The notes under the pieces: generated by a model | What the model was told of the DNA's origin: nothing | Seen by the model: only the letters and a program-made list of their open reading frames with translations | Database searches by the model: none | From: Nitzschia sp. pyKryTriq1 | Taxonomy: Eukaryota; Bacillariophyta; Bacillariophyceae; Bacillariales; Bacillariaceae | Assembly: GCA_956465555.1 (NCBI GenBank) | Contig: OY101119.1 | Coordinates: forward strand, 186,001-250,000 | Reading direction: 5' to 3' | Length of the DNA: 64,000 bases | Made by a program: the position numbers and the translations under genes | Shown: positions 32,970-50,904 of the stretch, in pieces | Layout: every line of letters starts with the position of its first letter | Position numbering within the stretch: position 1 is the stretch's first letter

Positions 32970-33336
32970 TAGAAGAGAAAACAGCAAGGATTGACCAAAC
33001 TACAAGAACAAAGAGCAGACACTGCTATGGCTTGATGTATGTTGTCGATATTTCTATGCATGTTAATTCTTATTGACGATCTCCTCCTCGATGATGACGG
33101 TGATCATTACTATTTGTTTGCCATCACCGCATTCTTCAGCGGCAGTGGGAGCCAACAGAGCCGCTCGAATGATTGAATCAATCAGTCATTTTTTCTTTCT
33201 CTTTGGTTTCCTTTTCCTTTTTTATTTTTTACTTATTGGGGTGCGACGACAACATTCTTCTTTCCAATGCGGGGTGGTTCAGCAACAGCAGCAGCATTCT
33301 TCTTTCTCCTGGTTCCTGGTTTTTGCTTGCTTGGTT
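32970..33336 (+). repeat. 3' flank of Hint gene, copy A
   Basis: The sequence from AAGAGAAAACAGCAAGG through the TTTTTCTTTCTCTTTGG region is nearly the same as at about 39130-39494 and 48363-48734. It is the conserved 3' flank of all three Hint genes and includes a GCAGCAGCA repeat. No ORF of its own is supported. Confidence 0.8.
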
Positions 33337-35448
33337 TCAGATACCCTTGGCGACGATGTCGATCAGGTTCTTGGTCATTTCCACCTCCTTCTCAAAGAAC
33401 TCGTCGAGATCGTCATGCTCCTGGTAGTCCAAGGTGAAGACGTTGTCCTTGAGCTCGATGAGATGAGCTTCGGTATCCAGATGATACAAGGTCTTGACCG
33501 GGGTTTCCTGGCAAGTGGACCCGTAGTCGGCTTCGACAAAGGCGCCAGCACCAGCACCATCGCTGGAGTACACAAAATACTCATCGCTAACGACAACGTT
33601 CGGCGCAAGGCGACACATGCGATCCTTTTGGCTTCCATCAAACTTGTAGAAGCCGACGACTTTGCCTCCGAGAGAAACAACATCATTGAGCTCAATGTCC
33701 TCAATGGCCTTGAACGAACCATCTTGCATCTTGACGAGAGATTCCCCAGCAAAGTAGTCCTCGTACAAGAACAACGAATCTTGATTGAGGAGCTTGTCCT
33801 GGTGGAGACTTTTCACCTTGGCCAATGCCATTTCCTTCTCGATCTCGAAGAACTCGGGAATGATATCATGTTCGCTAAAGTCAGTGGCTACGATGCCGTT
33901 CTCGAACTCGATCACATGGTTCTTGGTCTCAATGTCGTAGACAAAGTTGGCATGCTCATTGCAAAGCTCCTCTGACTCGACGAGCAAGCTCTTGGCGGGT
34001 ACGAATACACCTGCTTCTTGGTCCAGTACCATGTGCATCCTGGTCACGGCGAATTTGTCATCGATACGGCACAAGCCGGGGGCGGATTCTCCTTGAGCAA
34101 AGGTCACAACGGAGGTGACGAGACCGCCTTTGGCCACGTCATCGCCAATCTCAATGTCGGCAATGGCTTTGAGACTACCATCCGCCATCCGGACGGTTGT
34201 CTCCTCGGTAAAGCACAACTGGCTCCAAGATGGGACCGAGGATGGGACCAAGGATGGGACCGAGGATGGGACCGAGGATGGTTGGCTCGATGGAGCCGAA
34301 GTTGGCAGCTCGGCTTTTTCTTCGAGCAGAGAAACGAGCTTCTTCAATTCCTTGATGCTGGGGCCGTCTGGAAACATTTCACGGAGAACGGCCTCAAAAT
34401 CGCGCTTACTTAGTTCTGGCGTTCCAGCTTCATTCAAGAAGTCTTTCAAGTTTTGCACATCGTCCGTTGTCAAGCCCAATTCCTCCCTGGCAAGTTGGTT
34501 TATCTCTAGCGTGAGAGCTTTTATTCGAGCGTCAATGTTGTGGCGGAGCTTCACTCTCTGTTCAAGGAGATCTTCTTCCAGCTTGGCTTCATCTTTAATC
34601 AGGGATAATAGCTCCATCAAGTCCTCGATATTGGCGTAGGCTGGAACTAATCCTTTGTTTTTCATTTCTTGGATCGCGTCCTCCCCTGGATCGAGTTGAT
34701 CCAAGAGCTCTCCCAAGGCATGACGATACTCCTCCTCCTCAAACGGAAGTTGGGACGCCAAATCCCCGACAAGTTGGGCAATCTTTAGCCGGAGATTTGC
34801 CAATAGAGCCTCAATGATTTCGACGAGCTTCATTCTCTCTTCAAGGAGATCTTCGTTCAGCTTGGCTTCTTCTTCAAAGAAAGATATGATTGTTTTGGAA
34901 AGATTCTTCAAATCATCAATACTTGCATTTTGTGGAAAGAAACCTTTTTGTTGTTGATAGAGAAGATATTCCTCTAGCTCGTCCCGCTTAAGTTCTGCGG
35001 CTGCGTACGAGAACCTTCTCAAGGCGTCAGGATCGTCGGTCGCCACTGCAAAACCACCACCGAAAACGGCGTTCAGTTCTTTCTCGAGATTTGCCAATTT
35101 AGCTTGGAGAAGGGTGTTCATCGTTTTCTCGATATCAGCTAGTTTAGCTTCAATCTTGGCGATGTCGTCCATTCCCTTTTGCAGCTTGTTGTTGGGTGGT
35201 GATTTCAACCCTCTCTCGCCTGACGATCCTCCTCGTCCCAATTGACGCCCTTTTTGAGGAACACCTTCCGTACTATCATACTCCAAAACGCGGGGAAACA
35301 TGGTCGAAGTCTGGTTGGTCAAATGACCGCTCACTGGCTGGCTCAATATAAAGCAGTAGTAGCCAAGCAAGAAGCACATCATCATGCCTACACCACCGCC
35401 AGATGATCGGAGAAAACAAGACGAACAAGAAGAAGACTGCATCGTCAT
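33337..35448 (-). CDS. Secreted coiled-coil protein with two C-terminal Hint domains
   Basis: Single-exon protein of 703 aa. An N-terminal signal or anchor segment (MMMCFLLGYYCFILSQPVSG) leads into about 300 residues of charged helices with internal repeats (EAKLNEDLLEERMKLVEII and EAKLEEDLLEQRVKLRHNI). A linker of PSS-x-PSS repeats follows, then a two-Hint cassette from C412 to the end. Hint 1 begins CFTEETTVRMADGSLKAIAD and has the block-B motif TRMH. It lacks the C-terminal His-Asn of inteins; the region reads ATDFSEHD. Hint 2 begins FAGESLVKMQDGS without a Cys. The cassette is almost identical to that of the oxygenase genes at 48735 and 39495, but the N-terminal part is unrelated. Likely a secreted protein processed by hedgehog-like autoproteolysis; no sterol-binding region is seen. 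The gene sits between direct repeats. Confidence 0.85.
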   Translation of the reverse strand: MTMQSSSCSSCFLRSSGGGVGMMMCFLLGYYCFILSQPVSGHLTNQTSTMFPRVLEYDSTEGVPQKGRQLGRGGSSGERGLKSPPNNKLQKGMDDIAKIEAKLADIEKTMNTLLQAKLANLEKELNAVFGGGFAVATDDPDALRRFSYAAAELKRDELEEYLLYQQQKGFFPQNASIDDLKNLSKTIISFFEEEAKLNEDLLEERMKLVEIIEALLANLRLKIAQLVGDLASQLPFEEEEYRHALGELLDQLDPGEDAIQEMKNKGLVPAYANIEDLMELLSLIKDEAKLEEDLLEQRVKLRHNIDARIKALTLEINQLAREELGLTTDDVQNLKDFLNEAGTPELSKRDFEAVLREMFPDGPSIKELKKLVSLLEEKAELPTSAPSSQPSSVPSSVPSLVPSSVPSWSQLCFTEETTVRMADGSLKAIADIEIGDDVAKGGLVTSVVTFAQGESAPGLCRIDDKFAVTRMHMVLDQEAGVFVPAKSLLVESEELCNEHANFVYDIETKNHVIEFENGIVATDFSEHDIIPEFFEIEKEMALAKVKSLHQDKLLNQDSLFLYEDYFAGESLVKMQDGSFKAIEDIELNDVVSLGGKVVGFYKFDGSQKDRMCRLAPNVVVSDEYFVYSSDGAGAGAFVEADYGSTCQETPVKTLYHLDTEAHLIELKDNVFTLDYQEHDDLDEFFEKEVEMTKNLIDIVAKGI
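34232..34281. repeat. 12-bp tandem repeat encoding the PSSxPS linker
   Basis: About four copies of a GGGACCRAGGAT unit inside the coiled-coil Hint gene. On the coding strand they give the Val-Pro-Ser-Ser type linker between the helices and the Hint cassette. Confidence 0.75.
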
Positions 35449-35961
35449 AGTACTAGAACGAACAAGACAAGAAATGCCAAGGGTATCTTATGCGGAAGGT
35501 AAGCACAGTCAGTAGCAGAGCAACAGCATATCGTGATATCTGATGTTGTTGTGATCACTGCTTGTCTCATACTGGTTCGGTATGGATACGGCTGGTCGTC
35601 GCAGCATCATCTTTACCTTCCGTCTTTCTTGCCGCCCACCGACCTCGCTAACTCATTTTAATTCGATATCTGATGTTGTTGTGATCACTGCTTGTCTCAT
35701 ACTGGTTAGGTATGGATACGGCGGTGTGGATGACGCGGTATGGATACTGGATACACGGTACCTGGTATCTCTGCGGTATTGTACCTGTAGAACTGTTTCA
35801 GCTGTTTTCTTATCGTACTGAAGGAGGGAGGGTTTTTATTTTGGTCCAATGATAGTCTTCCACGTGTTCGGTCAAAAAATGGGATCCTTCGCCTCCAGAG
35901 TGCTCCAGTAATAGTAGCTACTGTACCGGTATTGGAGTACTGGTACTGTACCGTAACTTCG
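35449..35961. repeat. Mosaic intergenic region with copied segments
   Basis: Contains a direct repeat of about 60 bp (35536-35593 and 35669-35725, GATATCTGATGTTGTTGTGA...). A segment at 35596-35655 closely resembles 37383-37442 in the 5' flank of the SWEET gene. No gene seen. Confidence 0.65.
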
Positions 35962-36150
35962 AATGCAAAGTATCCTTTGAGGAGAGTATTTCGGCCGAAC
36001 CCGGAGCCAAAGCGGAGTTACTACCCAAACAACAACAACAAGAGCCGTAGCATCATCTCAAGTACGAGTAGAGTAGGAGGAGTATTAATACAACAGCCAT
36101 CCTTATTATTTGCTTTTGCTTTGATCTGTATTATAGCAGATAGTATGATG
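35962..36150 (+). pseudogene. Duplicated 3' end of EEFSEC
   Basis: Starts at GAATGCAAAGTATCC and still encodes the last 28 or so residues of the elongation factor (KVSFEESISAEPGAKAELL...) with stop and 3' flank. It differs from 32782-32968 by about ten changes. It has no promoter or upstream exons and ends beside the stop codon of the SWEET gene. It forms the right direct repeat around the coiled-coil Hint gene. Confidence 0.85.
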
Positions 36151-36151
36151 A

Positions 36152-37231
36152 CTACGGTTCCAGTGGAAGGGTCGCCGCTGAGGATCCATCCGTACTCGAG
36201 GCGTTGGGCATTCCTCCTTCCTCGTCATCCGATAGTACTACATCTGATTTGTCAAGTGGAATTGTCGTTGTCAGTGGCAGGGGAGCCATTTCCTCTGTTA
36301 TTTCGTCTACTGCAGCACTACTTGCCACTGCTGCTGCTGCTGCTGCATTTCTGGGATACCAGACAATCAACAAGACTTGAATGACACCCAGCAGGGCTCC
36401 TAATCCATTGGGGACATAGACAAATGGATCCAGGACGGCCAATCCGTAGGCCATCCAAAAGGTCCCATTCAACGTATTGGTGACCATGGTCCGAATATGA
36501 ATACTGGCGGAATGCTTTTGCGTCATGACCGTCACAATGGTCGAAAGAGGCGCGCCATAGAAAAAGACGAGATTCAAATTGACCAAACTTCCTACCAGGA
36601 TTTGTCGTGTGATCGATGTAAAGGAGGTCAGAGTAAAGCCCAATATCGATATACATATCGTCCATATCGTGACAATGCACAAGACCAGAGTTTCATGGGG
36701 AGCCGGCGCCGGAGTCGTTTGAGACGTCACATTCCATACGATGGTCGCCCAATCTTTCGCTGTTGTAGTAGCAGCAGTAGTAGCAGCAGTCGAAGCCATG
36801 TGCATTGGTGGTTCGGATATTCTTATTCTCATACTCGTCGTCGACTCTACTTCGAGATCTCGTTTGGATTGTTCTTGCTTGGTTTCTTCCTCTTCCTGCA
36901 AAAATGCCACGAAGGATTTTCTCATTTCGGTAGCATGATGTCGTTGATATAACAATTTGACGGCACCCAAATTCAAATAGACACTGAGCAAAAATCCGGG
37001 CGCATTGGCCCAAAAGATGAATAAATTTTGTGTCAAGATCCCGTACGTTACCCAGCCAAAGCAATTCCCGAGCATGAACGCCCAGGGCGTTGGATTCAAA
37101 TCTCCCATTTCGCCTCGTCGTACGGCGTCCTGCAAGTCACGGTAGGGAGCCGAAAACATGAATTGGCAAATCAAAACGCCCAAGCCGGGGCAGACATATT
37201 CCAGAATAATAGTCGAAGCGGATAGCACCAT
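36152..37231 (-). CDS. SWEET: SWEET (MtN3/saliva) sugar transporter
   Basis: Single-exon protein of 359 aa from the ATG at 37231 (MVLSASTIILEY), chosen because the first membrane helix follows directly. Two MtN3 triple-helix bundles are visible: GLGVLICQFMFSAPYRDLQ to GFLLSVYLNLGAVKLLYQRH, and GSLVNLNLVFFYGAPLSTIV to VPNGLGALLGVIQVLLIVWY. They are joined by a linker helix (TLVLCIVTIWTICISILGFT). Conserved features are the Pro of SAPY and GAPL and the Asn of MLGNCFGW and TNTLNGTFWM. SWEETs are bidirectional facilitators of mono- or disaccharides in plasma or endomembranes. The cytoplasmic loop after bundle 1 is long and Thr/Ala-rich, and the C-terminal tail is acidic. The stop lies two bases from the duplicated EEFSEC fragment. 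Confidence 0.9.
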   Translation of the reverse strand: MVLSASTIILEYVCPGLGVLICQFMFSAPYRDLQDAVRRGEMGDLNPTPWAFMLGNCFGWVTYGILTQNLFIFWANAPGFLLSVYLNLGAVKLLYQRHHATEMRKSFVAFLQEEEETKQEQSKRDLEVESTTSMRIRISEPPMHMASTAATTAATTTAKDWATIVWNVTSQTTPAPAPHETLVLCIVTIWTICISILGFTLTSFTSITRQILVGSLVNLNLVFFYGAPLSTIVTVMTQKHSASIHIRTMVTNTLNGTFWMAYGLAVLDPFVYVPNGLGALLGVIQVLLIVWYPRNAAAAAAVASSAAVDEITEEMAPLPLTTTIPLDKSDVVLSDDEEGGMPNASSTDGSSAATLPLEP

Positions 37232-37895
37232 ATTGTTTTGGTTTGGATTGGTTTGGATGCTATCATATGTTGTGTTGTTGTTCGTGTTGTGATGGTTATG
37301 TGCATGTTCTTCGAGTACCGCAATGGTACAATAAGTACTGGAACGGCAGACTACCATCTCACATCTCACCAGCAGCATGATGGTCGTCGCAGCATATCAT
37401 CTTTACCTTCCGGCTTTCTGTCGCCGCCCCGCGCCTCGCTCACTCATTTTCGGTTTGGTGACGTCGACAGTCGACAACAACAACTTGCTCAGACGATGAT
37501 ACGCCGAACCGGTGGCGAACTGGCGAAGACATTAAAGAGATTATGGCGCGCATGAAAAGAACTGCGATGGTCAGCACATGTTCTTTGTCCCACTACCGTC
37601 CGTCCGTCAGTCCGTACGTGAGTTCGTCCGTGTATGCGTGCGTGAGTGCGTTCGTGCGTGCTGAATTGTTGTATGCACGATCGCACGATCTTTTTTGGAT
37701 ATCCAACAAGAAACAAGACACAACATACACAACACAACATATTTACTATCGGTCGTTTCTCTCCCATTATCCCTTCAACCGGTACGTGAATGTTGTTTCA
37801 ACTCAATCCATTGTGTTCACACTTGCATTAACAATACCTCTCTATCATTACATTACAGTAAAGTAAAGTCAGTACGATATAGTAGTATCCTCATC
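37232..37895. other. Intergenic between divergent genes, no gene seen
   Basis: 5' regions of SWEET (left) and the secreted protein gene (right). The segment 37383-37442 is the likely source of a copied piece at 35596-35655. Confidence 0.5.
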
Positions 37896-38996
37896 ATGAT
37901 GATCATGAAGTTCTCCTCTTTCGCCTTGTCGTCGTCTCTCTTCTTGGTGCTGTTGTCGCAATCCGGCTTATCCGATGCTCAAGCAGCACCCGAGTGTTAC
38001 AACACCACTACGTCCATTCTCCTGGCCCAACTAGCGAATCCTCCCATCAAAGACTTTATCATTTGCCCCGACACTACGATTCAAATTGGATTGCCGGTCA
38101 ATGCCGAGTTTTCCGAGTTTGCTGGCGGCGATGTCCCCTTGGGAGTCTTCCATGATGATGTCACGATTCAATGTGGCGCCGATGGAGATCCTTCGAACAA
38201 TTGTGTCTTGACGGGCGGCTACGTTCAATTGGTAACCGTCTCGAACAATCCATTCTTGGCCGATAAAAAAATCTCCACCAACAATCTCAAGATCATGGGC
38301 ATTACCTTTTCGGGTGAATTGACCAGTCTTCCTGGTCTGGCTAGTCGCTCGATCATTCTATCGGCACCCGGTACCGATATGATGTTTTCGAATTGCGTCT
38401 TCAAAGATCTAAAGACCGACACAGTTGTGGCTAATGGAAGGGCCGTTTTGGTTCCAGACGAGGCGGATTATCCTCCCTTTTCTTCCAGTGCGACCCTTGA
38501 AAATCCCGTCTTTAGTGGTGTGACGTATGGGGAAGGTCTCATTAAGAATGATGTTCAAAGCATGACTCTCACCAACGGTATGTTTTCCGATATTACCTAT
38601 GAAGATTGTGGATGTGACGGTGTCATTTCCTTGATTCGCAATTTGGAAGGCATTTTTACCTTGACCGACACGGAATTCGGTACCGACACCATGGTCCAAA
38701 CTACCGTGGCGTATTGGTTACCCTCTCCATCGAATGCGACTACCGCCAGTGCCTTTACCTATTCCGGCAATGTGAACAGTGGTGCCGTCATTGAAGATGA
38801 GAACGAACCTCATTGCGACGGTGGACTATTGAAAGGGGCGGATGTCTCTACTGGAGAGTGTTTGGATCTCTTTGTTCCTGCGACCGATGATGATTCGGCG
38901 GCTCCTCCTGGTGTTCTTCTTGGTGCTGCCTCCACCAGCATCATCTTCATGATGATCATGATGATGTCGTCCATTACTATCCTTGCCATGTTGTAG
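37896..38996 (+). CDS. Secreted surface protein, right-handed beta-helix-like, C-terminal anchor
   Basis: Single-exon protein of 366 aa. A signal peptide (KFSSFALSSSLFLVLLSQSG) is followed by a region rich in short hydrophobic strands of beta-helix character (VTIQCG, NLKIMGITFSG, DMMFSNCVFKDL, SMTLTNGMFSDITYEDCG). This is the style of pectin-lyase-like secreted proteins common in diatoms. The C-terminus ends in a hydrophobic Met-rich segment (ASTSIIFMMIMMMSSITILA) preceded by Pro/Ala spacers, consistent with a GPI signal or membrane anchor. The first in-frame Met of the MMIMKF cluster was taken as start. The last 100 or so codons are duplicated as a fragment at 47932-48235. Catalytic function cannot be claimed. 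Confidence 0.75.
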   Translation: MMIMKFSSFALSSSLFLVLLSQSGLSDAQAAPECYNTTTSILLAQLANPPIKDFIICPDTTIQIGLPVNAEFSEFAGGDVPLGVFHDDVTIQCGADGDPSNNCVLTGGYVQLVTVSNNPFLADKKISTNNLKIMGITFSGELTSLPGLASRSIILSAPGTDMMFSNCVFKDLKTDTVVANGRAVLVPDEADYPPFSSSATLENPVFSGVTYGEGLIKNDVQSMTLTNGMFSDITYEDCGCDGVISLIRNLEGIFTLTDTEFGTDTMVQTTVAYWLPSPSNATTASAFTYSGNVNSGAVIEDENEPHCDGGLLKGADVSTGECLDLFVPATDDDSAAPPGVLLGAASTSIIFMMIMMMSSITILAML

Positions 38997-39494
38997 ACTA
39001 CAAGTACTAGTACTACGTCTGGTAAATCTTGTAAGCCATAAGTTATTTGTAAATAATCGTACTAGTTCTCTACTACTACTATACCGTCTCTGCGGACGAT
39101 AGTGGATGCTGCCACCAACAAAGGCAAGAAGAGAAAACAGCAAGGATTGAACAAAGTACAAGAACAAAGAGCAGACACTGCTATGGCTTGATGTATGTTG
39201 TCGATATTTCTATGCATGTTAATTCTTATTGACGATCTCCTCCTCTGATGACGATGATCATTACTATTTGCTTGCCATCACCGCATTCTTCAGCGGCAGT
39301 GGGAGCCAACATCGCCGCTTTAATGATTGAATCAATCAGTCATTTTTCTTTCTCTTTGGTTTCCTTTTCCATCTTTATTTTTTACTTATTGGGGTGCGAC
39401 GACAACATTCTTCTTTCCAATGCGGGGTGGTTCAGCAGCAGCAGCAGCAGCATTCTTCTTTCTCCTGGTTGCTGCTGGTTTTTGCTTGCTTGGT
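38997..39494. other. Convergent intergenic region, duplicated
   Basis: 3' flank of the secreted protein and 3' flank of Hint copy B. Nearly the same sequence recurs at 48230-48734, and the part from 39127 also recurs at 32970-33336. No gene seen. Confidence 0.7.
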
Positions 39495-41191
39495 TTAGAT
39501 ACTCTTGGCGATGTCGACCAGGTTCTTGGTCATTTCCACCTCCTTCTCAAAGAACTCGTCGAGATTGTCATGCTCGGAATAGTCCAAGGTGAAGACGTTG
39601 TCCTTGAGCTCGATGAGATGAGCTTCGGTATCCAGATGATACAAGGTCTTGACAGGGCCTTCCCGGCAAGTGGACTCGTAGTCGGCTTCCACAAAGGCGC
39701 CAGCACTAGCACCATCGGTGGAGTACACAAATATTCATTGCTGACGACAACGTTCGGCACAAGGCGACACATGCGAGCATTTTGGCTTCCATCAAACTTG
39801 TAGAAGCCGACGACTTTGCCTCCGAGGGAAACAACATCATTGAGCTCAATGTCTTGAATTGCCTTGAAAGAGCCATCTTGCATCTTGACGAGAGATTCCC
39901 CAGCAAAATATTCGTTATACAAGAACAACGAATCTTGATTGAGGAGCTTGTCCTGGTGGAGACTCTTCATCTTGGCCAATGCCATTTCCTTCTCGATCTC
40001 GAAGAAATCGGGAATGATATCATGTTCGCTAAAGTCAGTGGCCACGATGCCGTTCTCGAACTCGATCACATGGTTCTTGGTCTCAATGTCGTAGACAAAG
40101 TCGGCATGCTCATTGCATAGATCGTCAGACTCGAGCATGTTCTTGGCGGGTACGAATACTCCTCCTTCTTGGTCCAGTACCATGTGCATCCTGGTAACGA
40201 CAAGGTTCTCGTCGATACGGCACAAGCCGGGGGCTGATTCTTCCTGCGCAAAGGTCACTACGGCAGTGACAATACCGCCTTTGGCCACGTCATCACCAAT
40301 CTCAATGTCGGCAATTGCCTTGAGACTACCATCCGCCATTCGCACGGTTGTCTCCTCGGTGAAGCATTTGATGGGTGGGGGGGAGGGGCCCCGACGGAGT
40401 GTACTTCTGCGTTGGCAGTAGTGGGTCCCAAAAACTTGACGGGTTCTGCCCCAACATCACCACTACGCCCCGCAGCAGCAACCTCGGTATGGTGGACGTA
40501 TCCTCCGTGAAAGGTCACCTTGGTTCCACACATGGCCGGGACACGCTCGTCACCATAGACGAATACAGCATCAGGATTGTCATTCAAGTACATGAGCACC
40601 ACGGGCTCGTTGACGAGTTGACCCAGTTTCTCGCGATGAGCCGAGCGGCCACCAGTGTAGTGATCTTGGTGAGGTACGCTAGTCTCTTCGAGGCGAGTAA
40701 TGGGAAGTGAATAGTCACCAGCAATATCCTCATCTTCTTGAGAGGATCCGGATTGGTGGACAAAACGATTAAAAACATCGCGAGTCACAGTCATGTGGGT
40801 TCGGTAGAGCAGAGACCCGTGTTTATCTTTTCTCTCACAAGCTGTCTTCAGGAGAGTCTTTCAAGATTTGAGCGCACTCTTCGGGGGTCAAGACATTCTC
40901 TTCTACCTTGATGAATCTTGGGCCTAATGTCGCCATGTGGACGCCGTTCTTCTCGGAGAACCACGCGTCTTTGTTCTTCGGGGCCTGCATAGTAGTACTC
41001 TCGGTGATAGCAGCCACCTCCAACACTGTAGTAGGAGGAATCGCACCAACGTCGGCGAACGCCAAGACAACGCCATGTGCTTCCGAGGACGTTCATTTGG
41101 TGGTAGCAGCCACGGCAGCAATACCCTCAGTCGAGGTACTAGTACGTCCGAGGGCTACGACGAGAGCAAAAGTAGCAAATGAGAGACGCAT
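39495..41191 (-). pseudogene. Decayed oxygenase-Hint gene (copy B)
   Basis: Clear relative of the intact gene at 48735-50423 along its whole length: signal peptide MRLSFATFALVVALG, the RFIKVE-NVLTPEECAQILKDS segment, the PHQDHY iron-binding motif, VHHTEVAA, and both Hint domains. It is broken in several places. There is an in-frame TGA at 41095-41093 (an AGA-to-TGA change after AATTK). A second TGA follows a 2-nt loss near 40837. There is a frameshift in the G-run at about 40377-40387, before the first Hint Cys, and another near 39725-39737 inside Hint 2. An extra segment near 41000-41050 is absent from copy C. It is most likely not translated as one protein. Confidence 0.85.
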
Positions 41192-41614
41192 GTTGGCTTT
41201 TGTTGGGGAGGAAATGGTAGTGGTAAGGATGTAGAATTGTTTGATTCCTTCCTTTCGCTTATACGATGATGGATACAAACAAATTTATTGTGTCGGCTAA
41301 CTAAACGTGTACCGTAGTGTCGGAAGTCGGAAGCTTTCAGTAGTGTACGCAGTCTGTACACTTCACTAAATTTAGGGAAGCACTACAAGTACTGCGGTCT
41401 TCGGAAGGATAGGAAGGATACTTTTTTAAAATAAAAAAAGATCCATTGAGCGCTCTATTGCGGTCTTCGGAAGGAAGCGAACGATAGAAAAGATACATTA
41501 ATTGAGCGCTCTATTGCGCGTTTTGAAAATAGAACGAATGTGGCAATGCTGGCGCGGAATCGGTCTGTACGGCGTACGTATTGACGACCGATGTCCGGTC
41601 GGTGGATTCCGATG
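41192..41614. repeat. Intergenic with a short tandem duplication
   Basis: A unit of about 60 bp (GCGGTCTTCGGAAGG ... GAGCGCTCTATTGCG) occurs at about 41394-41458 and again at 41459-41517, with changes. No gene seen. Confidence 0.6.
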
Positions 41615-42518
41615 ACTGACGACCGGGAACGGTTCACAAACACACAAAAACGGAATCTGTCACGTCTGTCCGTCGCACACGTTTCTTCATTATAGGCATA
41701 TATATATTCATCTACGACATCATCCGAACACACGACGGATTGCACGCAATGCGAGGTCTGTTGTCCGTCACGAGGTTTGTGACGCGTCGCGAATACATCG
41801 CGACGCGTCGCGACGCGTCGCGACACTTCGAGACACTTCGAGACACGTCGAGGCAAGCGATACCGGTACGATGGACGAGGACTATTAGTACTGTATCATC
41901 GTACTAGTAAAGCATACTACAAAAGCAGCGTATACTAGTACTAGATAGATGACTAATCCATACTGCAGACTCTAGAGAGGCAGTAGTAGTAGTAATAATA
42001 GAGAAAGATACTGTTGTACTAGAAAGAAGAATCAGCAGTCAAAGAACATCAGTTTGTTCCTCACCACCGATTGTTCTGCATAGGGCACCAATCTGTGGAG
42101 GGAGGAGAAGACATCTGCTTCGAATACTGTAGCACTGACTGTGGCTGGAGGGCTGGCTTGCTCACTGGTACTGTTCGTACCGCCGGTACAGGAGTATTCT
42201 GGTACCGGTATTCGACCAGTTCATACATGGTTCATAATGGTGTGGCACATAATCGGACGGTGGCGACGCGTCGCGACGCGTTGCGACGCGTTGCGACGCG
42301 TTGCGACGCGTCGCGATGTATTCGCGATGTATTCGCGATGTATTCGCGACGCGTCACAAACCTCGTGACGGATGCCAGACCTCGCACTGCTTGCAATCCG
42401 TCGTGTGTCCTGATGATGTCGTATCAAATTATATATATGCCTACAATGAAGAAACGTGCGCGACGGACAGACGTGACTGATTCCGTTTTTGTGAGTTTGT
42501 CAACCGTTCCGGGCGGAC
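41615..42518. mobile_element. Large imperfect inverted repeat, possible fold-back or non-autonomous DNA element
   Basis: Left arm about 41620-41835 and right arm about 42300-42518 are inverted copies. Outer parts pair GGGAACGGTT with AACCGTTCC, then AAAAACGGAATC with GATTCCGTTTTT, then CACGAGGTTTGTGACGCGTC with GACGCGTCACAAACCTCGTG. The inner ends are tandem GC-rich palindromic units (CGACGCGTCG and variants, 41797-41823 and 42261-42318). The 460-bp centre has no gene. I found no transposase inside and no clear target-site duplication. Confidence 0.6.
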
Positions 42519-43349
42519 ATGCAATGCTGCTGGTACGCAGACGAGAAATTTAGATAGAGTATTTTACGCAGATGACTTTATTAGAATACAATTAATCAGA
42601 CTCATTGCGCAGACGATATTTTTAGCTGCATGCGAAATTTCCATCCAATGCTTCGGCCATCACGGATTCCCAGCATGCGGCGACCCAATCAAGGTAGTGA
42701 AAGCGCGAAACACGCCTTTCCTGCACCGGCCAATACAAGACGTGCCAATGTTTTGTGGAATGGGTCATCTAAGCTTTTTGCCACACCCCGGATTCGCATT
42801 ACTAGACCGGACCCAATTCAACAAGACCGTAGTGGAGCCACCCCAGTTGCGAGCTTGATGGGACGGACAGACGGAAATTGAATTGTCAGCCGGAGGATCG
42901 GACGCCAGCCACCAGTCATCGCAAATGGCTAACGGCCGATCCACCAAGCATGAAAGCAACAGCCAAGTGAGTGACCATGACGATGGCACTTTCTTGGATC
43001 AAAGGCGGCAAGCAAAGATTCGGATTCGGACCCGAAAACCTCGGATCAAGATCAGTCACATTAGTTGAAAAGCTTGCTCTACGAGTAAGCCAATAGCAAT
43101 TTTAAGGCCACCCACCCACCCGGGCGATCTCTCAGGTCGCTTGGGTCAACCGCGCTCCGGTAACACGGAGCCACGGTCACGCCCAATCAATACTAACAAC
43201 TTTCTGGAGCGGCCGGGAAATCAATGTCTGCGGATTAGAACGCAGGACAGACCACGGAAATTGTCTTGTGAGGCAAGCGCAAAACCAGTAATTCCACGAT
43301 TAAAAAGTGTATCCACGCGGTAAAGCCAATTCCTTGGTATTGTTAGTAC
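42519..43349. other. Repeat-rich intergenic DNA, no supported gene
   Basis: Composition changes here to fewer trinucleotide runs and fewer TACCGGTA palindromes, which fits old mobile-element sequence. Short frames (42630-42881, 42883-43068, 43141-43323) show no recognisable domain. Confidence 0.45.
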
Positions 43350-43416
43350 GATCGCCAAACGTTGCAAATTTTGCAACATTGTTGCAAATCAGATTTGCAA
43401 CATTGTTGCAAAAGCG
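43350..43416. repeat. TTGCAACA-type palindromic repeat, copy 1
   Basis: Interleaved copies of TTGCAACATTGTTGCAA and TTGCAAATTTTGCAA beginning with TCGCCAAACGTTGC. Related to the array at 45245-45387. Confidence 0.7.
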
Positions 43417-43599
43417 CGACCATGAGCGATGGGAAGGGGGAAGGCGCCGCCCCCCCTTCGGTGCTTTGGTTCTCGTGTTGGTGCGCATACGCCGCTCCCT
43501 CGCGACTCGCGATAGATTATCGAAAACCTCGACGCGTAACTGGTAACTGCACCATGCTCGTTGGCGTCCAGCTTGCCGGCATGAGCATCGAAAGGATTG

Positions 43600-43990
43600 G
43601 TACTAACAACAGAAGCGCAAGACACGATGTGTTTAAGGATAAGTATTATTGCTGCCCGAAGACGGTCAAGCAAATCCATAGAGATATTCAAGACCCAGCT
43701 CTGGGGTACAAATGTATCAAGAAACCAGACCCGGTTCATCTACTGAACGCCTTGTAATTTCTGAAAAAATATCCGACGAAACACGAGCTTGCTGGTTTCC
43801 TGGATTCCACGCATAAGACAGCCCTCCAGCGGGCATGGTTATACGTCGAAGCGATTCAAGCGTTGAAAGAGAAAAAGGTGCGTGAGTGATCCTTGTCGTT
43901 ATTCACTTCTGACAGATAATTTGCCATTGCTTCAGATCAAATGGATATTCGACGACAATGACGAACTTGATGAGTTCTTTATGATCAGTG
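43600..43990 (+). pseudogene. Transposase-like remnant
   Basis: A broken frame reads HDVFKDKYYCCPKTVKQIH, then LLNAL, a TAA stop (43754-43756), then FLKKYPTKHELAGF and ALQRAWLYVEAIQALKEKK. A likely intron (43878-43938, GTGCGT to TTCAG) leads to IKWIFDDNDELDEFFMISV. The pattern, a helical N-terminal region leading towards a D-containing strand, recalls the region before the catalytic core of Harbinger/DDE-type transposases found in diatoms. The catalytic part is missing because SET-like sequence begins at about 43988. Identification is by memory of the pattern and is tentative. Confidence 0.4.
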
Positions 43991-44233
43991 TTGCATTTGG
44001 GAGCCACGAACAACTCCGTCAGCCGGTTGGTATTCAATCCCAACTGCATCGCCAAGGTCATTCCGGGACTCCCTCCCAACGAACACTTGAAGCGTGTCAT
44101 TATCATTGCCCAGCGTGCGATCGAGCCACGGGAAGAGTTGACGTACGACTACCAATTTCCACTCGAGTTGGATTTGGCGGCTCGGATTCCTTGCAATTGC
44201 GTGAGCGAGCATTGTCGTGGATTCATGAATTGA
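43988..44233 (+). pseudogene. SET domain fragment, C-terminal half plus post-SET
   Basis: The frame reads NPNCIAKVI, RVIIIAQRAIEPREELTYDYQF, PCNCVSEHCRGFMN and stop. These are the last SET motifs (with the catalytic-type Tyr in EELTYDY) and the Cys-rich post-SET of SET1/MLL-type histone H3K4 methyltransferases. The first half of the domain is not upstream; transposase-like sequence abuts it instead. Confidence 0.75.
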
Positions 44234-44379
44234 GATCTTCCCCAGAAGGGTAGCAATACACAAGTGTTCCGATCTCAAAAGAGAGGCGCCAATATGCAAG
44301 ATCGTATTCGCCGACTGGGCCGGCCGCTCAAGAGCGATCGAGGAGATGATGACGACGATGACGACGAGTAAGACAATGG

Positions 44380-44521
44380 CACAACGGATTTGAATGAAAA
44401 GGCCAAGGCGGCCAATGAAGTCGCCGTGACGGTTCGTGGCAGTGGCATCCATGGATGGGGTATGTTTGTCGATCAGTCCTTCAAGAAGGGAGATGTTGTG
44501 GCCGAATACATTGGCGAGTAG
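44380..44521 (+). pseudogene. SET domain fragment, N-terminal part
   Basis: The frame NEVAVTVRGSGIHGWGMFVD continues to VVAEYIGE and then a TAG stop. This is the start of a SET domain (GWG and the EYIGE strand). It lies after, not before, the C-terminal fragment at 43988-44233, so the domain is permuted. An in-frame stop also lies shortly upstream, after an Asp run. Confidence 0.65.
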
Positions 44522-45244
44522 CGTCTCTTTGTTCCATACAACAAAACAACATGATTTGCCATCTTTTTATTCCATTACACTGGTAATATCTACTACAGTA
44601 CCTGGTACGTACTGTACATATCTTTTCGTTTGGCATCATCATCATCACTCATCATTATCACCATCATCATCGATTGATGAAAGCATCGGCTGTTCCCAAA
44701 ACAAAAAACATATCAATAAATAATAATGATGATAATGTCGTCGCGTAATCACAACAGGAACGTTCACTACTACTTGCGCTGGTGGGGGAATGAGAGGGAG
44801 AACAATTCCGGAATTACAACTGTTGGAGGAATACGCTCTAATAGAATCATCCATGCAAGAGTTCTTGAGAGTGGCGGAAGAAGCCAACGAAATTCCTGTT
44901 CTATCCTCCGAATAAATGATGATGATGAAAATAGCGCTTTCTCTATGATCTCCGTCAGGGTACAGTAGATTTCAAATTGATACACGTACTCGTAGTGCTG
45001 GTGGTACTACAGTCTAGTTCACGATCAACTTGCAGCCAGGTAACGTCATCTATCATCCAACCACCACTATTACAGACAGAGAGTAAAGTAGGATTCATAG
45101 GTCTACCAGAGAGTAGAAGGTACTGGTACTACTTGTACTTCATATGCCAAAGAAAGAAGCTTCTCCCTTGTTTGCGAGAGACAAAATCATTCTCGTGACG
45201 TCACGGGATCACGCGTTTCCCCCATTCCCCCCCCCCCAATTGCT
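44522..45244. other. Intergenic, no gene seen
   Basis: ATC/ATG repeats near 44635-44672 and short frames without domains. No continuation of the SET gene is found. Confidence 0.45.
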
Positions 45245-45387
45245 TATCGCCAAATGTTGCATATTTTGCAACAATGTTGCATATTTTGCAACAATGTTGC
45301 ATATTTTGCAACAATGTTGCATATTTTGCAACAATGTTGCAAATCGTTTTTGCAACAATGTTGCAAGTTGCAACATTTGGCGATGGT
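45245..45387. repeat. TTGCAACA palindromic array with 15-bp terminal inverted repeats
   Basis: Starts with ATCGCCAAATGTTGC and ends with its exact inverse GCAACATTTGGCGAT. Inside are about four tandem 20-bp units (ATGTTGCATATTTTGCAACA) and two variants. Every unit is itself palindromic, so the whole can fold into long hairpins. It resembles a MITE-like or fold-back element. Confidence 0.75.
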
Positions 45388-45970
45388 TTCGCCGTGCCCT
45401 ATGCACAGGAATATCGATCTTGACTAATCAACGTTAACTTGAAATCCCTCTATTTTTTTAGTTCAACAATATAATAAGCCCTCTGGGTCGTCTGTCCGGT
45501 GTACCACCAGTCAACCTGATTTTCCCGGCCGCTCCTGACACACTACAACTGACACACCGTAGCGAAGGGCAGGCGTAAGGGGTTCGAGAACTAGAAACTC
45601 CAAAAAGGATTCGGAGCCTCGCGTCGGAGCCATAGGTTCGTGTGCCCTGATTATTTTATTTTTTAAACAACAACATCCGCGCGGCCGTTTCGGTTTCGCC
45701 CGTGTGTCTTCGTTCCGTAATAAGTTCGTATGGAGGGAGACCACGTAGTAGTACATAGTTGCAAGGTACTACACCGGTAAATAATCCACCACTTTTGCAT
45801 CTCCGCCGCGATATTATTATGGCATCTTCATTCATCATGCCCCCTCTGCCCATATCGCACAACGCACAACAATTGAAACCCGAGAAACCTACTACTAGTA
45901 TTTGTCTTATCTAGTCTAGCTACAGTAGTTGATGCATGCTGCTGCTTTCTGACCGACAGTGCAACGCTGA
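45388..45970. other. Intergenic, no gene seen
   Basis: No supported ORF; it is the 5' region of the next gene. Confidence 0.45.
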
Positions 45971-47659
45971 ATGATGATGCCGTCCTCGTCTCGAGAAGAC
46001 ACCCATCATCATGCGGTTAAGGATGCTCCCGGTAATACGAGACCTACTACTTCTACACCACCACCGCCAGCAGCAGCAGCAGCAGCGGCAAATTTGCATC
46101 ATGATCCATCCCTTGAAAAAATCCAAGAGACTTTTCTAGGTCAACATTTTTTCAAAGAAGAAAACGACGGGACCAAGCGCCCAAACGACAATGACTTTTA
46201 CCTTAGCTCGCTGCTGGCGCAAGAATTCACGAAATTGACTATGAAGGAGCGGGAGAAGTCGTATGAAGAGCTTCATGGTGTCGATGAGTTGATCGAAGAG
46301 ACGCCCGAACTCGTTGCCACCAGCCTCAAGGCTTTAGAGGACGAACTGGATAGGATATTATTGTTCTCATCCAAGAATGATAAGCTTGCCGCCTATTGCA
46401 TTGCCGAGCAACAAAACAAGGACTACGTGACGGATCCAGGCTTACGACTTTGCTTCTTGAGAGCTGATCGATTTGATCCTTGCAAAGCTGCTCGCCGCAT
46501 TGTTGCGTTCTTCGAAGGAAAGCTGCAATACTTTGGAGAAACGCTCCTCACGAAACGGATTCAGTTTGAAGATCTCGACAGCGACGACCAGGCATGTCTA
46601 AAAGAAGGTCACATGCAAGTACTGCCCAGTCGCGACCGAGGTGGGCGGGCTATTTTTTGTGACATTAATATGATCAACGATTCGAGCTACAAGAGACCTA
46701 TCAACAGGCTCAAGGCATTCCTCTATATGATATTGACTTTGGCTCTAGACGACGAGGAGAACCAGAAACGCGGCATCGTTGTTGTTCTAATGCAACTTGG
46801 ACATGTCAATCCAACAGAGGTGAACCGGGAATTGGCCAAAGAAAGTCCTCGAATCCTCAAGTGGGTGCCGATACGTCTCAGTGGGTTGCACTTTTGTATG
46901 GATGATCCATTTCTCTCCATACTTGCTCGAATCAGTTTGGTCGGGTCGCCGCCTGATATTCGTGCCAGGCACCGGCTCCATATCGGGGCCCGCACTGAAA
47001 TCAAATATTCGCTCATGACCTATGGAATTCCTGTCGATCTGCTTCCGTTGAGCGATCAGGGGGATATCATCAAGAAGACGAATCACAACCGCTGGATTGC
47101 CCGGCACAAGTCTAAAGAATCCTCCCTGTACCGAATCGGCAGCAATACGTTCTCGGGTATTGTTATCGACTTGCCCACTCGACAAGACATACTTATAGGA
47201 AAGGGAAAGCCATTTCAAGAACATTTTGGAAATGTCAAGCTTCGAGCACTCGTGGACGACCATTTGGAGGAATACAACACGACGAAGAGGGGTAGCAAGG
47301 GGGACGTGATAAACAAAGTTCTCGATTCGGTCAAGTCATCCGGTAGTCGATTTCTCGGAAAACAGAATCACAATGATAATGATGATGATAATAATAATAA
47401 TAATAATAATGGGTGGTGGTGGGTTGAGGTTTCGGATACCGAGGCGACAGAGAAAGTTGCAAAAACGTTTCTCTCGGCTTGTGCAAAAAGTAAAAGAACC
47501 ACCGCGGACCACAAGGATACCAGTAACAGGAGTACTATTACCTCCTCAACACGTCAGCAGCAGCAGCAGCAGGGTTCGTCGGGGCCATCGTCGTGGGAAG
47601 AGGAACGAAATTCGACGTTTATCTTCCAACCTGAAAAGCGCCGGAAGTTTGATGGATAG
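45971..47659 (+). CDS. CRAL-TRIO/Sec14-like protein with C-terminal DUF6824 domain (paralogue 1)
   Basis: Single-exon protein of 562 aa. After a disordered Ala/Pro-rich start comes a CRAL-TRIO-like region (about 145-380): the N-lobe LRLCFLRADRFDPCKAARRI, then GGRAIFCDIN and RPINRLKAFLYMILTL. The C-terminal DUF6824 domain (about 405-510) starts DILIGKGKPFQEHFGNVKLR and contains VINKVLDSVKSSGSRFL and WWVEVSDTEATEKVAKTF, interrupted by an Asn/Asp run. DUF6824 is common in diatoms and may be a DNA- or protein-binding module. The tail ends EKRRKFDG, a possible nuclear signal. Lipid binding together with a regulatory domain suggests a sensor, but that is inference. A close paralogue lies at 51708-53348. 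Confidence 0.82.
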   Translation: MMMPSSSREDTHHHAVKDAPGNTRPTTSTPPPPAAAAAAANLHHDPSLEKIQETFLGQHFFKEENDGTKRPNDNDFYLSSLLAQEFTKLTMKEREKSYEELHGVDELIEETPELVATSLKALEDELDRILLFSSKNDKLAAYCIAEQQNKDYVTDPGLRLCFLRADRFDPCKAARRIVAFFEGKLQYFGETLLTKRIQFEDLDSDDQACLKEGHMQVLPSRDRGGRAIFCDINMINDSSYKRPINRLKAFLYMILTLALDDEENQKRGIVVVLMQLGHVNPTEVNRELAKESPRILKWVPIRLSGLHFCMDDPFLSILARISLVGSPPDIRARHRLHIGARTEIKYSLMTYGIPVDLLPLSDQGDIIKKTNHNRWIARHKSKESSLYRIGSNTFSGIVIDLPTRQDILIGKGKPFQEHFGNVKLRALVDDHLEEYNTTKRGSKGDVINKVLDSVKSSGSRFLGKQNHNDNDDDNNNNNNNGWWWVEVSDTEATEKVAKTFLSACAKSKRTTADHKDTSNRSTITSSTRQQQQQQGSSGPSSWEEERNSTFIFQPEKRRKFDG

Positions 47660-47931
47660 GAGGATCGTTGTCTTGGCAAGCACTCCAGAGAGCACTTGTG
47701 CAACTAAAATAGTATGGTCAACAACATGGATAGTTGCAACATAGCTAGAATAGCGAAGCCAGAAGACGATACGGTCTACTGTATGTACCTACAAGCTACT
47801 AATCACGACGGTAGGAAATATTTCTACGACGGTGGGAGGAGCCCGAACAACGCCGAAAAGACCACGGCTTCTGAAATGATAATAGCTTGAATGAAAGAAC
47901 CAGTCAGTCAATTTTTCTTTCTCGTTGTTTT
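47660..47931. other. Short intergenic region
   Basis: 3' flank of the CRAL-TRIO gene. The last 60 bp (about 47875-47925) resemble the Hint-gene 3' flank (AATGATTGAATCAATCAGTCA type), suggesting a recombination joint. Confidence 0.45.
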
Positions 47932-48235
47932 CTACCGTGGCTTATTGGCTCCCCTCTCCATCGAATGCGACTACCGTCCATACCTTTACCTATTCCGGCA
48001 ATGTGAACAGTGGTGCTGTGATTGGTGCAGATGAGAATGGTGGACTATTGAAAGGGGCGGATGTCTCTAGTACTACTGATGAGTGTTTGGATTTCTTTGC
48101 TCCTACGACCGACGATGGTTCGGCTGCTCCTCCTGGTGTTCTTGGTGTTGCCTCCACCACAAGCATCATCTTCATGATGACCAAGATTGATGTCGTCCAT
48201 TACTATCCTTGCCATGTTGTAGGCTACAAGTACTA
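47932..48235 (+). pseudogene. Fragment of the secreted beta-helix-like gene
   Basis: Begins abruptly at CTACCGTGGCTTATTGG, matching 38701 onward in the gene at 37896-38996. It still reads AYWLPSPSNATT, TYSGNVNSGAVI, GGLLKGADVS, AAPPGVLG and SIIFMM. The end is altered (a CCAAGATTG change, loss of the hydrophobic anchor). It has no start, signal peptide or 5' half, so it is a truncated copy carried along with Hint copy C. Confidence 0.85.
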
Positions 48236-48734
48236 GACAACGTCTTGTAAATCTTGTAAACAATAAGTTATTTGTAAATAGTCGTACTAGTACTCTACTA
48301 CTACTATACCCGCTCTGCGGACGAAAGTGGGGGATGCTGCCACCAACAAAGGCAAGAACAAGAGAAAACAGCAAGGATTGAACAAACTACAAGAACAAAG
48401 AGCAGACACTGCTATGGCTTGATGTATGTTGTCGATATTTCTATGCATGTTAAATCTTAATGACGATCTCCTCCTCTGATGACGATGATCATTATTACTA
48501 TTCGTTTGCCATCACCGCATTCTTCAGCGGCAGTGGGAGCCAACAGCGCCGCTCGAATGATTGAATCAATCAGTCATTTTTTCTTTCTCTTTGGTTTCCT
48601 TTTCCTTTTTTATTTTTTACTTATTTTATTGGGGTGCGACGACAACATTCTTCTTTCCAATGCGGGGTGGTTCAGCAGCAGCAGCAGCAGCAGCATTCTT
48701 CTTTCTCCTGGTTCCTGGTTTTTGCTTGCTTGGT
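48236..48734. repeat. Duplicated 3' flank of Hint copy C
   Basis: Matches 38997-39494 (copy B) nearly throughout, and from about 48363 also 32970-33336 (copy A). No gene. Confidence 0.8.
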
Positions 48735-50423
48735 TTAGATACTCTTGGCGACGATGTCGACCAGGTTCTTGGTCATTTCCACCTCCTTCTCAAAGAACGC
48801 GTCGAGATCGTCATGCTCCTGGTAGTCCAAGGTGAAGACGTTGTCCTCGAGCTCGATGAGATGAGCTTCGGTATCCAGATGATACAAGGTCTTGACCGGG
48901 GTTTCCTGGCAAGTGGACCCGTAGTCGGCTTCGACAAAGGCGCCAGCACCAGCACCAGCACCATCGTTGGCGTACATTAAAAACTTATTGCTGACGACAA
49001 CGTTCGGCGCAAGGCGACACATGCGATCTTCGTGGCTTCCATCAATCTTATAGACGCCGACGACTTTGCCTCCGAGAGAAACATGCTCATTCAGCTCGAT
49101 GTCCTGAATGGCCTTGAACGAACCATCTTGCATCTTGACGAGAGATTCCCCAGCAAAGTACACATCGTACAAGAACAACGAATCTTGATTGAGGAGCTTG
49201 TCCTGGTGGAGACTTTTAACCTTGGCCAATGCCATTTCCTTCTCGATCTCGAAGAACTCGGGAATGATATCATGTTCGCTAAAGTCAGTGGCCACGATGC
49301 CGTTCTCGAACTCGATCACATGGTTCTTGGTCTCAATGTCGTAGACAAAGTCGGCATGCTCATTGCATAGATCGTCGGACTCAAGCATGTTCATGGCGGG
49401 TACGAATACTCCCCCCGATTCTTGATCGTCCAGTACCATGTGCATCCTGGTAACGACAAGGTTGTCGTCGATACGGCACAAGCCGGGGGCGGATTCTTCT
49501 TGAGCAAAGGTCACGACGGAGGTGACGAGACCGCCTTTGGCCACGTCATCACCAATCTCAATGTCGGCAAAGGCTTTGAGACTACCATCCGCCATCCGGA
49601 CGGTTGTCTCCTCGGTGAAGCATTTGCCGCTGGGGGCGGGGCCGGGGGCTTGGACTCTGTATGCTTGTGGGTTGGCAGTGGTGGGTCCCAAAAACTTGAC
49701 GGGTTGGGCCCCAACATCACCACTACGCCCCGTACTTGCAGCAACCTCTGTATGGTGGACGTATCCTCCGTGAAAGGTCACCTTGGTTCCACACATGGCC
49801 GGGACACGCTCGTCACCATAGACAAATACAGCATCAGGATTGTCATTCAAGTACATGAGCACAACGGGCTCGTTGACGAGTTGACCCAGTTTCTCGCGAT
49901 GAGCCGAGCGGCCACCAGCGTAGTGATCTTGATGAGGTACGCTACTCTCTTCGAGGCGAGTGATGGGAAGTGAATAGTCACCAGCAATATCCTCATCTTC
50001 TTGAGAGGACGATCCGGATTGGTGGTGGACGAAACGATTAAAAATATCGCGAGTCACAGTCATATGGGTTTGGTAGAGCAAAGACCCATCTTTATATTGC
50101 TTCTCAAACAAGCTTTCTTCAGGAGAGTCTTTCAAGATTTGAGCGCACTCTTCGGGGGTCAAGACGTTCGCTTCTACCTTGATGAATCTTGGGCTCAACA
50201 ATGTCTCCATGTGGACGCCTTTCTTCTGGAAGAACGCGTCTTTGTTCTTCGGGGGCTGCATAGTAGTACTTTTGGTGGTGGTACCCACCCCCAAGAACAC
50301 TCCATGTGTTTCCGAGGACGTTCTTTTGGTGGTAGCTGCCGCGACAGTAGTACCTCTGAAGGTACCACTGCCGAGAGCTATCAGCATGGCAAGACGAGCG
50401 AAAGTAGCAAATGAGAGACGCAT
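48735..50423 (-). CDS. Secreted 2OG-Fe(II) oxygenase (P4H-like) fused to two Hint domains, intact copy C
   Basis: Single-exon protein of 562 aa from the ATG at 50423, chosen for its signal peptide (MRLSFATFARLAMLIALGSG). Residues 78-250 form a prolyl-4-hydroxylase-like double-stranded beta-helix domain: RFIKVEANVLTPEECAQIL, H164-x-D166 in PHQDHY, VVLMYLNDNPDAVF, and the distal His in GTKVTFHGGYVHHTEV (223/224), with K243 as a candidate 2OG-binding residue. A Pro/Gly linker leads to Hint 1 (C268 in CFTEETTVRMADGS, T325-x-x-H328 in VTRMHMV) and Hint 2 (about 424-562), in which the Cys is replaced by AGES and the T-x-x-H by SNKF. Hint 1 looks able to do an N-S acyl shift. An enzyme released or modified by self-cleavage is inferred. 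Confidence 0.85.
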   Translation of the reverse strand: MRLSFATFARLAMLIALGSGTFRGTTVAAATTKRTSSETHGVFLGVGTTTKSTTMQPPKNKDAFFQKKGVHMETLLSPRFIKVEANVLTPEECAQILKDSPEESLFEKQYKDGSLLYQTHMTVTRDIFNRFVHHQSGSSSQEDEDIAGDYSLPITRLEESSVPHQDHYAGGRSAHREKLGQLVNEPVVLMYLNDNPDAVFVYGDERVPAMCGTKVTFHGGYVHHTEVAASTGRSGDVGAQPVKFLGPTTANPQAYRVQAPGPAPSGKCFTEETTVRMADGSLKAFADIEIGDDVAKGGLVTSVVTFAQEESAPGLCRIDDNLVVTRMHMVLDDQESGGVFVPAMNMLESDDLCNEHADFVYDIETKNHVIEFENGIVATDFSEHDIIPEFFEIEKEMALAKVKSLHQDKLLNQDSLFLYDVYFAGESLVKMQDGSFKAIQDIELNEHVSLGGKVVGVYKIDGSHEDRMCRLAPNVVVSNKFLMYANDGAGAGAGAFVEADYGSTCQETPVKTLYHLDTEAHLIELEDNVFTLDYQEHDDLDAFFEKEVEMTKNLVDIVAKSI

Positions 50424-50904
50424 GATGTTGGCTGTCGTTGTCGTTGGGGAGGAGGAAACGGTAGTGGTAAGGACAATGTACCGGTACAATTGTTTGATTC
50501 CTTTCGCTTAGTACGATGGATGCAAACAAATTTATTGTGTAGGATGCTTTCAGAACACTTTTCTCAACAAATTCTGAATTCTGAACGTCCGCTTGTAGCA
50601 CGTGTGTTGTTTTCGGAAACTGACACTGCGCGATCTTTGGACTGAAGAGAAAGATACTTTTTGCATGCGATGATTGATGATTCTTCGCCGTCTTCTTCTT
50701 GAAGCATACCGGTAATACATAGAACGCACGCAAGCAACGATTATTGTACTTGCACGAATTCCAGAAGCAACGTTATTCCCTACTTGTGTTTCTTCTTCTT
50801 CCGCCTGTACTGCGTCGGCACCTTCGTAGCTTGCATGATGTGGGCGGTATGTACTTGCTCGCTGTCTAACTCTAAGATAGAGTACAGCGTAGTAGACTGT
50901 ACTC
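50424..50904. other. Intergenic, no gene seen
   Basis: 5' region of the oxygenase-Hint gene. The first 100 bp resemble the 5' flank of copy B (about 41192-41280). Confidence 0.5.

Follow-up and report, generated by a model that had tools for sequence, protein, structure and literature searches.

Two genes on the minus strand of a 64,000 nt stretch of the Nitzschia sp. pyKryTriq1 genome (contig OY101119.1; hereafter the window) end in nearly the same cassette of about 290 residues, which carries two Hint-like domains and is joined in each gene to a different N-terminal module. On a narrow balance of probability, we read the products of these genes, A and B, as secreted precursors with a Hog-like cassette, in which the first Hint domain (Hint1) would process itself so that the N-terminal module is released or modified, and the second (Hint2) would be retained without an active site. 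In hedgehog, as described in PMC7906309, the active site consists of Cys, Thr, His and Asp, and a sterol-recognition region (SRR) enables cholesterol ligation.

Under the proposed mechanism, both precursors, whose secretion is predicted from N-terminal hydropathy, would carry the processing cassette at the C-terminus. Hint1 would carry out an N-S acyl shift at the peptide bond that precedes its first Cys (Leu411-Cys412 in A, Lys267-Cys268 in B), and the thioester would be resolved by water or a small nucleophile, presumably not a sterol. The N-terminal module, either a coiled coil or an enzyme resembling 2-oxoglutarate (2OG) oxygenases, would, within the secretory pathway, be set free or acquire a new C-terminus. 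Hint2 is a tandem duplicate that lacks an active site, was kept by selection over the longer span and stands at the site of hedgehog's sterol-recognition region; we infer that it probably acts as a folding, docking or acceptor-recognition platform. The relevant features, all on the minus strand, are as follows.

33337..35448, minus strand: gene A, 703-aa precursor with hydrophobic N-terminus, coiled-coil-like region, PSSxPS linker, Hint1 and pseudo-Hint2 (open reading frame (ORF), Pfam, hydropathy)
34294..35184, minus strand: A residues ~89-385, helical-looking, E/K/L-rich, with an internal repeat (coiled coil judged by eye)
34216..34293, minus strand: A PSSxPS linker, residues 386-411 (translation)
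34213..34215, minus strand: A Cys412 codon, predicted site of cleavage, at which DNA homology to B and the pseudogene exactly begins (blastn)
33877..34215, minus strand: A Hint1, with C412, T469, H472 and motif-J-like IVATDF with D523 (Pfam, alignment)
33340..33753, minus strand: A pseudo-Hint2, from residue 566, without Cys and without TxxH (alignment, profile comparison)
32973..33336, minus strand: 3' flank common to A, B and the pseudogene (blastn)
48735..50423, minus strand: gene B, 562-aa precursor with hydrophobic N-terminus, 2OG-oxygenase-like domain, Hint1 and pseudo-Hint2 (ORF, Pfam, hydropathy)
49674..50201, minus strand: B oxygenase-like domain, residues ~75-250, with H164-Q-D166, H223 and K243 (alignment)
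49620..49622, minus strand: B Cys268 codon, predicted cleavage point (blastn)
49281..49622, minus strand: B Hint1, with C268, T325, H328 and IVATDF with D380 (Pfam, alignment)
48738..49157, minus strand: B pseudo-Hint2, from residue 423 (alignment)
39495..41191, minus strand: decayed oxygenase-Hint copy (the pseudogene), oxygenase and Hint parts in different frames, with internal stops (ORFs, genome search)
38856..41296, minus strand: segmental duplicate of 48081-50543, 87% identity (blastn)

The cassette and its boundary

Genes A and B are uninterrupted ORFs of 703 and 562 amino acids, each with a stop, which bears out the coordinates and frames given in the first-pass annotation. That annotation had also claimed a C-terminal cassette of about 290 residues common to A, B and the pseudogene at ~39.5-41.2 kb, and both a protein search of the genome and blastn agree; the cassette comprises residues 412-703 of A and 268-562 of B. 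When the whole genome (40.65 Mb, 20 contigs) was searched with the A cassette, five protein matches were obtained at four loci: two fell in the pseudogene and one each in A, in B and in a truncated copy on contig 11 (C11:1333241-1336984). At the contig-11 locus a signal-like start adjoins the middle of Hint1 and the frame is shifted. With this frameshift, and with neither an oxygenase nor the beginning of Hint1, the locus was rejected as a second live oxygenase-Hint gene. A database search with full-length B, in which only the 8000 candidates sharing most words were scored, returned three matches, P0003 to P0005. P0003, a Logan protein from another dataset, is intact and differs from the contig-11 locus at 2 of 240 compared residues; the two may represent an allele or strain difference, or the assembly may be at fault. 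The diatom identity of the host, as first proposed, is confirmed by eight matches to the silicon-transporter family PF03842 in a family search of the genome, seven of them at E <1e-260.

At the DNA level, A and B share a single long block (34215-32973 and 49622-48360, 92.8% identity over 1269 columns) that starts with the first nucleotide of the Cys codon. Further upstream, blastn yields only short matches, the longest of 31 nt (E 0.007). The match between A and the pseudogene likewise begins at 34215 (34215-32971 and 40366-39127, 92.3%). Measured per 100 columns from the Cys codon, A/B identity is 0.88-0.99 over the first 700 columns and 0.92-0.99 beyond, so that similarity in the flank equals or exceeds that in the coding part; gene conversion may have been at work. 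The relation between B and the pseudogene is that of a segmental duplication (50543-48081 and 41296-38856, 87%), which extends into the neighbouring gene.

The homology boundary at the Cys codon supports movement of the cassette as a unit. The pairing of oxygenase and cassette also occurs in the diverged P0003, and A is therefore best read as the younger chimera, in which the cassette and its 3' flank were put behind a coiled-coil gene. The coiled-coil module of A (residues 98-385) is 43% and 42% identical to the products of two genes on contig 1 (ORFs of 643 and 642 aa), which end in a Cys-rich repeat and carry no Hint. These two genes (L052 and L053, at ~128 and ~87 kb) are nearly identical and in opposite orientation, and L052 has a weak DUF7640 match. 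The oxygenase module, like the coiled coil, occurs elsewhere without Hint. The proposal of a Hint cassette serving swappable secreted modules stands in part: the cassette does lie behind unrelated modules with signal-like hydrophobic starts, but one of its Hints is dead and the features for sterol attachment are missing.

A plausibly live and a dead Hint domain

The assignment to Hint made in the first-pass annotation is upheld by Pfam, with Hom_end_hint or Vint above the curated cut-off in three of the four window proteins scanned; the remaining one, the pseudogene's upstream ORF of 200 aa, has no Pfam match. Hom_end_hint is the top family for both A and B. Against Vint (PF14623, cut-off 27), B (27.9), the pseudogene ORF (34.5), P0003 (28.4) and P0005 (33.1) score above the threshold, and A (24.2) and P0004 (17.3) below it. 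Hint1 of A, B, P0003 and P0005 opens with CFT-x-E and keeps T-x-x-H; the Cys, T and H are thus kept in four of the five aligned sequences, P0004 being the exception. In two of three MAFFT modes (L-INS-i and E-INS-i), the Hint1 Cys, T/S-x-x-H and motif J align with those of Drosophila Hh (1at0) and of two PF01079 Hogs from the same genome, with IVATDF of the cassette placed against AASCY, HASTF and LASSY; in G-INS-i the alignment of motif J with 1at0 and the two diatom Hogs was not recovered. It is plausible that Hint1 is catalytically live.

The cassette had been described as containing two Hints. Two homologous domains are indeed present (hhalign 99.8%, E 5.7e-30, along the length of the domain), but Hint2 has Tyr or Asp at the former Cys position and lacks T-x-x-H, which leaves one catalytically equipped domain and one that is dead; two working Hints were rejected for this reason. 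Hint2 is a tandem duplicate of Hint1. The metagenome protein P0005 carries a single intact Hint and a ricin-type lectin domain (PF14200, 25.9 bits, cut-off 25.6), and the simplest history is therefore that one Hint was later duplicated in tandem, although P0005 may instead have lost Hint2.

Ratios of nonsynonymous to synonymous substitution (dN/dS) were calculated by NG86 with 200 bootstrap replicates per pair. For Hint1 the A/B ratio is 0.26 (bootstrap 0.14-0.51), and from LCRID onward B and A give 0.37 (0.23-0.61) and 0.24 (0.11-0.47) against the contig-11 copy; across six pairs the range is 0.24-0.37. Against the same diverged copy, Hint2 gives 0.13 (0.08-0.24) in B and 0.17 (0.09-0.30) in A, which points to purifying selection. 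In these comparisons, 167 and 195 replicates were usable for Hint2 and 200 and 195 for the Hint1 pairs, the others presumably being dropped through saturation of dS. Identical residues between B and P0003 number 104 of 177 in the oxygenase, 89 of 140 in Hint1, 93 of 143 in Hint2 and 19 of 67 in the part before the oxygenase, so that the oxygenase, Hint1 and Hint2 are conserved about alike. Chance similarity and mis-framed ORFs are ruled out by the Pfam scores above cut-off together with the coding constraint on Hint1.

Several observations weigh against an autoprocessing Hog-like cassette. None of the sequences reaches the PF01079 cut-off of 29.7, as A, B, P0003, P0005 and the pseudogene ORF score 23.9-27.2 bits and P0004 14.4. 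P0004 has the cassette but has lost Cys and His from both Hints. The span from the Cys to the motif-J Asp is just 108-115 residues, whereas the corresponding distance in Drosophila Hh, to the motif-J Cys, is 143, and the residue preceding the Hint1 Cys varies (Leu, Lys, Gly or Arg). A comparison by hhalign of Hint1, in a profile that omitted P0004, with the two Hogs was weak (11%, 19 columns, out of register). The dS values against contig 11 are 0.8-1.8, near saturation, and the A/B ratio for Hint2 is 1.02 (bootstrap 0.52-3.12); the constraint on Hint2 is therefore an older signal that is not seen in the recent pair.

Some of these points would fit a cassette that is a non-catalytic structural or binding module, in which the Hint folds form a docking tail and no autoprocessing takes place. 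We consider this a real but distinctly lesser possibility. It would agree with the conservation of Hint2 without catalytic residues, with the state of P0004 and with the shortness of Hint1; retention of the Hint1 Cys, T and H in all but one of the aligned sequences argues against it, as does a DNA homology that begins exactly at the Cys codon.

That the cassette is a true hedgehog-type Hog, which places a sterol ester on the N-terminal module and thereby anchors it to the membrane, seems improbable. The CFTxE start, the T-x-x-H and motif J do resemble Hog, and the N-termini are hydrophobic. Where Drosophila has the general-base Asp (FMDRN), however, A, B, P0003 and P0005 have Q, Q, H and G (L-INS-i). 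The two PF01079 Hogs of the genome have H and Y in that column, so the loss is not special to the cassette and does not discriminate. By sequence and by eye, no SRR or adduct-recognition region (ARR) with motifs K and L follows Hint1; a short helix-like stretch and pseudo-Hint2 are found there instead. Sterol transfer is not predicted because both the general-base Asp and the sterol-recognition region are missing, and the cassette as a whole is far from the two PF01079 Hogs.

It is less probable still that A and B are relics of a decaying small gene family without present function. Two of the four loci in the genome are broken and the A/B ratio for Hint2 is near one, but A and B remain open over their full length, Hint1 is constrained between them and P0003 is an intact relative. 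Splicing by an intein or bacterial intein-like (BIL) domain, in which the N-terminal module would be joined to another piece, is the least credible option: Hom_end_hint is the top family for A and B and there are weak Protein Data Bank (PDB) matches to PI-SceI and chains 6tmm/6y75, but the C-terminal His-Asn and nucleophile are absent, VATDF standing in their place, and a splicing intein was rejected on these missing residues. A viral or bacterial origin was also rejected, since scans with the whole-protein alignment A1 (66 pattern matches on viral contigs) and the oxygenase alignment A6 (61 on viral contigs and 9 in one genome-contig scan) yielded no relatives; these negatives are weak because two short peptide patterns underlie each scan.

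The oxygenase-like module and two PF01079 Hog genes

The N-terminal module of B had been called prolyl-4-hydroxylase (P4H)-like. Its H-x-D...H...K motifs and faint profile evidence favour that call, but no Pfam oxygenase family matched any of the window proteins or relatives scanned and the call is weak; we judge the module to be probably P4H-like. In addition to B, nine proteins or fragments of the family were found (P0003, P0007-P0013 and the pseudogene). In alignment A6, from which P0008 and P0013 were omitted, H98, D100, H157 and K177 are invariant in all seven sequences; in alignment A3, H223 and K243 are present in nine of nine and H-x-D in all eight that reach it. Searches of the genome with the B module and with P0009 found the module in B and the pseudogene only. 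Seven proteins of 150-312 aa in a large protein database match the module, and Pfam detected no Hint in any of them; that search was limited to proteins of ~110-350 aa, so longer fusions would have escaped it. Lysine- and serine-rich tails are present in four of the seven (P0007, P0008, P0009 and P0012), and P0010 runs on into a VWD-like region (E 0.001, 19.8 bits, cut-off 22.9).

Profile comparisons with known oxygenases gave mixed signals. Of the 56 PF13640 matches in the genome, 20 were scored with the A6 profile, which gave 15.4 bits for L030, 6.3 for L034 and at most 2.6 for the other 17 listed, and the best of 1000 shuffled sequences reached 5.4. The alignment with L030 covers the LxxEEC helix and, more weakly, H-x-D. 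With hhalign, the oxygenase family matched P4H at 18.8% (score 28.2 over 31 columns, the N-terminal helix only; 20 column shuffles reached at most 16.6), whereas the P4H profile scored the oxygenase family no better than shuffles (2.8 bits for both). PDB sequence searches with the oxygenase gave nothing relevant. A phrog_61 match (E 0.0028-0.97) appeared in six of the seven proteins scanned, B itself being the one without, and PHROG 'endonuclease V' matches in four of five oxygenases (E 0.019-0.078) were treated as chance.

The two PF01079 Hogs of this genome lie outside the window. L050 (C2:3020077; region 3017000-3023500, 1956-3953) is a true Hog protein (99.7 bits) with TEKH and the motif J HASTF and, by eye, one hydrophobic segment before the Hog domain and another after it. 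L051, on contig 1 at ~418 kb (C1:418164; region 416000-420500, ~1674-2953), is a Hog-type gene (PF01079, 54.9 bits) with one inferred intron. Its N-terminal part is short and lysine-rich after a signal-like start, with GKSSVSKSSKKSSKKSGKG directly before the Hint Cys; we take this peptide to resemble silaffin or pentalysine peptides.

If Hint1 cuts, the cassette would be a transferable self-processing tail of diatoms that serves both an enzyme and a scaffold. A Hint without catalysis that is kept by selection would be a naturally occurring test case for how the stretch behind a Hint can become a substrate-recognition domain, a question that bears on the origin of hedgehog's sterol-recognition region. 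The cassette is also a testable lead on the maturation of diatom wall or surface proteins. A broader scheme can be imagined, rather unlikely in its entirety, in which diatoms possess a Hint/Hog toolkit with autocleaving tails on a dioxygenase (B) and a scaffold (A), a Hog on a silaffin-like peptide and a dead Hint as acceptor-recognition domain, for processing or anchoring extracellular and biosilica-making proteins.

Neighbouring features and known systems

Several other features were noted in the window. A secreted-looking gene at 37734-38996 adjoins the pseudogene and has an LD_SV2 match below cut-off; stretches of it recur beside B at 47932-48346 as part of the segmental duplication. Two related DUF6824 genes (45971-47659 and 51702-53348) lie on either side of B. 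An inverted repeat at 41623-42513, with 181-nt arms that are 90% complementary and 529 nt apart, is possibly a transposable element, and 30429-32870 encodes, by Pfam, a selenocysteine-specific elongation factor (eEFSec).

We conclude that the cassette is real, correctly placed and partly explained, and that autoprocessing, as predicted from its residues, is plausible. Hog domains with varied N-termini, secreted where the start is known, are described as widespread in protists, and motif J may carry S, T or D for Cys, with Asp in moss and red-algal cases (Burglin 2008, PMC2362128). As in those proteins, the diatom cassette follows a hydrophobic start and a variable N-terminal module and has a C-terminal Hint with Cys, T-x-x-H and motif J with Asp for Cys. 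It differs in having a dead tandem Hint in place of an SRR or ARR, a shorter Hint and an oxygenase-like N-terminal module. The Vint profile scores above cut-off for B, P0003, P0005 and the ORF of the pseudogene but below it for A and P0004; unlike Vint proteins, which the same paper describes as being without motif J, it has motif J, a hydrophobic N-terminus and no VWA or Vwaint Pfam match. The B family resembles 2OG-Fe(II)/prolyl-4-hydroxylase-like oxygenases in its H-x-D, distal H and K, its L-T/S-x-E-E-C helix and its YLND strand, and is set apart by its small size and lack of a Pfam match.

Hint domains are abundant in two other diatoms. A 2025 paper counts >290 genes with IPR001767 in Pleurosigma pacificum and 112 in Seminavis robusta (PMC12803021), and its available excerpts give counts only, without architecture, oxygenase fusion or pseudo-Hint. 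Excerpts of other papers mention Hint proteins during Seminavis sexual reproduction (2013), Kelch and Hog proteins in red algae (2026), Hog genes of Cyanidioschyzon (PMC5405695), HINT domains among secreted proteins of chromerids, 'hint domain' and 'prolyl 4-hydroxylase' as separate transcripts in a haptophyte, in the one retrieved paper with both terms, and an absence of Hh-related genes from oomycetes (PMC8530017). The first-pass annotation knew of no described Hint-oxygenase fusion, and the open-licence PMC full texts, as far as their retrieved passages go, likewise contained neither such a fusion nor a conserved pseudo-Hint. Swappable secreted N-termini on Hog are thus already known; new here are the oxygenase-Hint fusion, the conserved pseudo-Hint and the codon-exact boundary.

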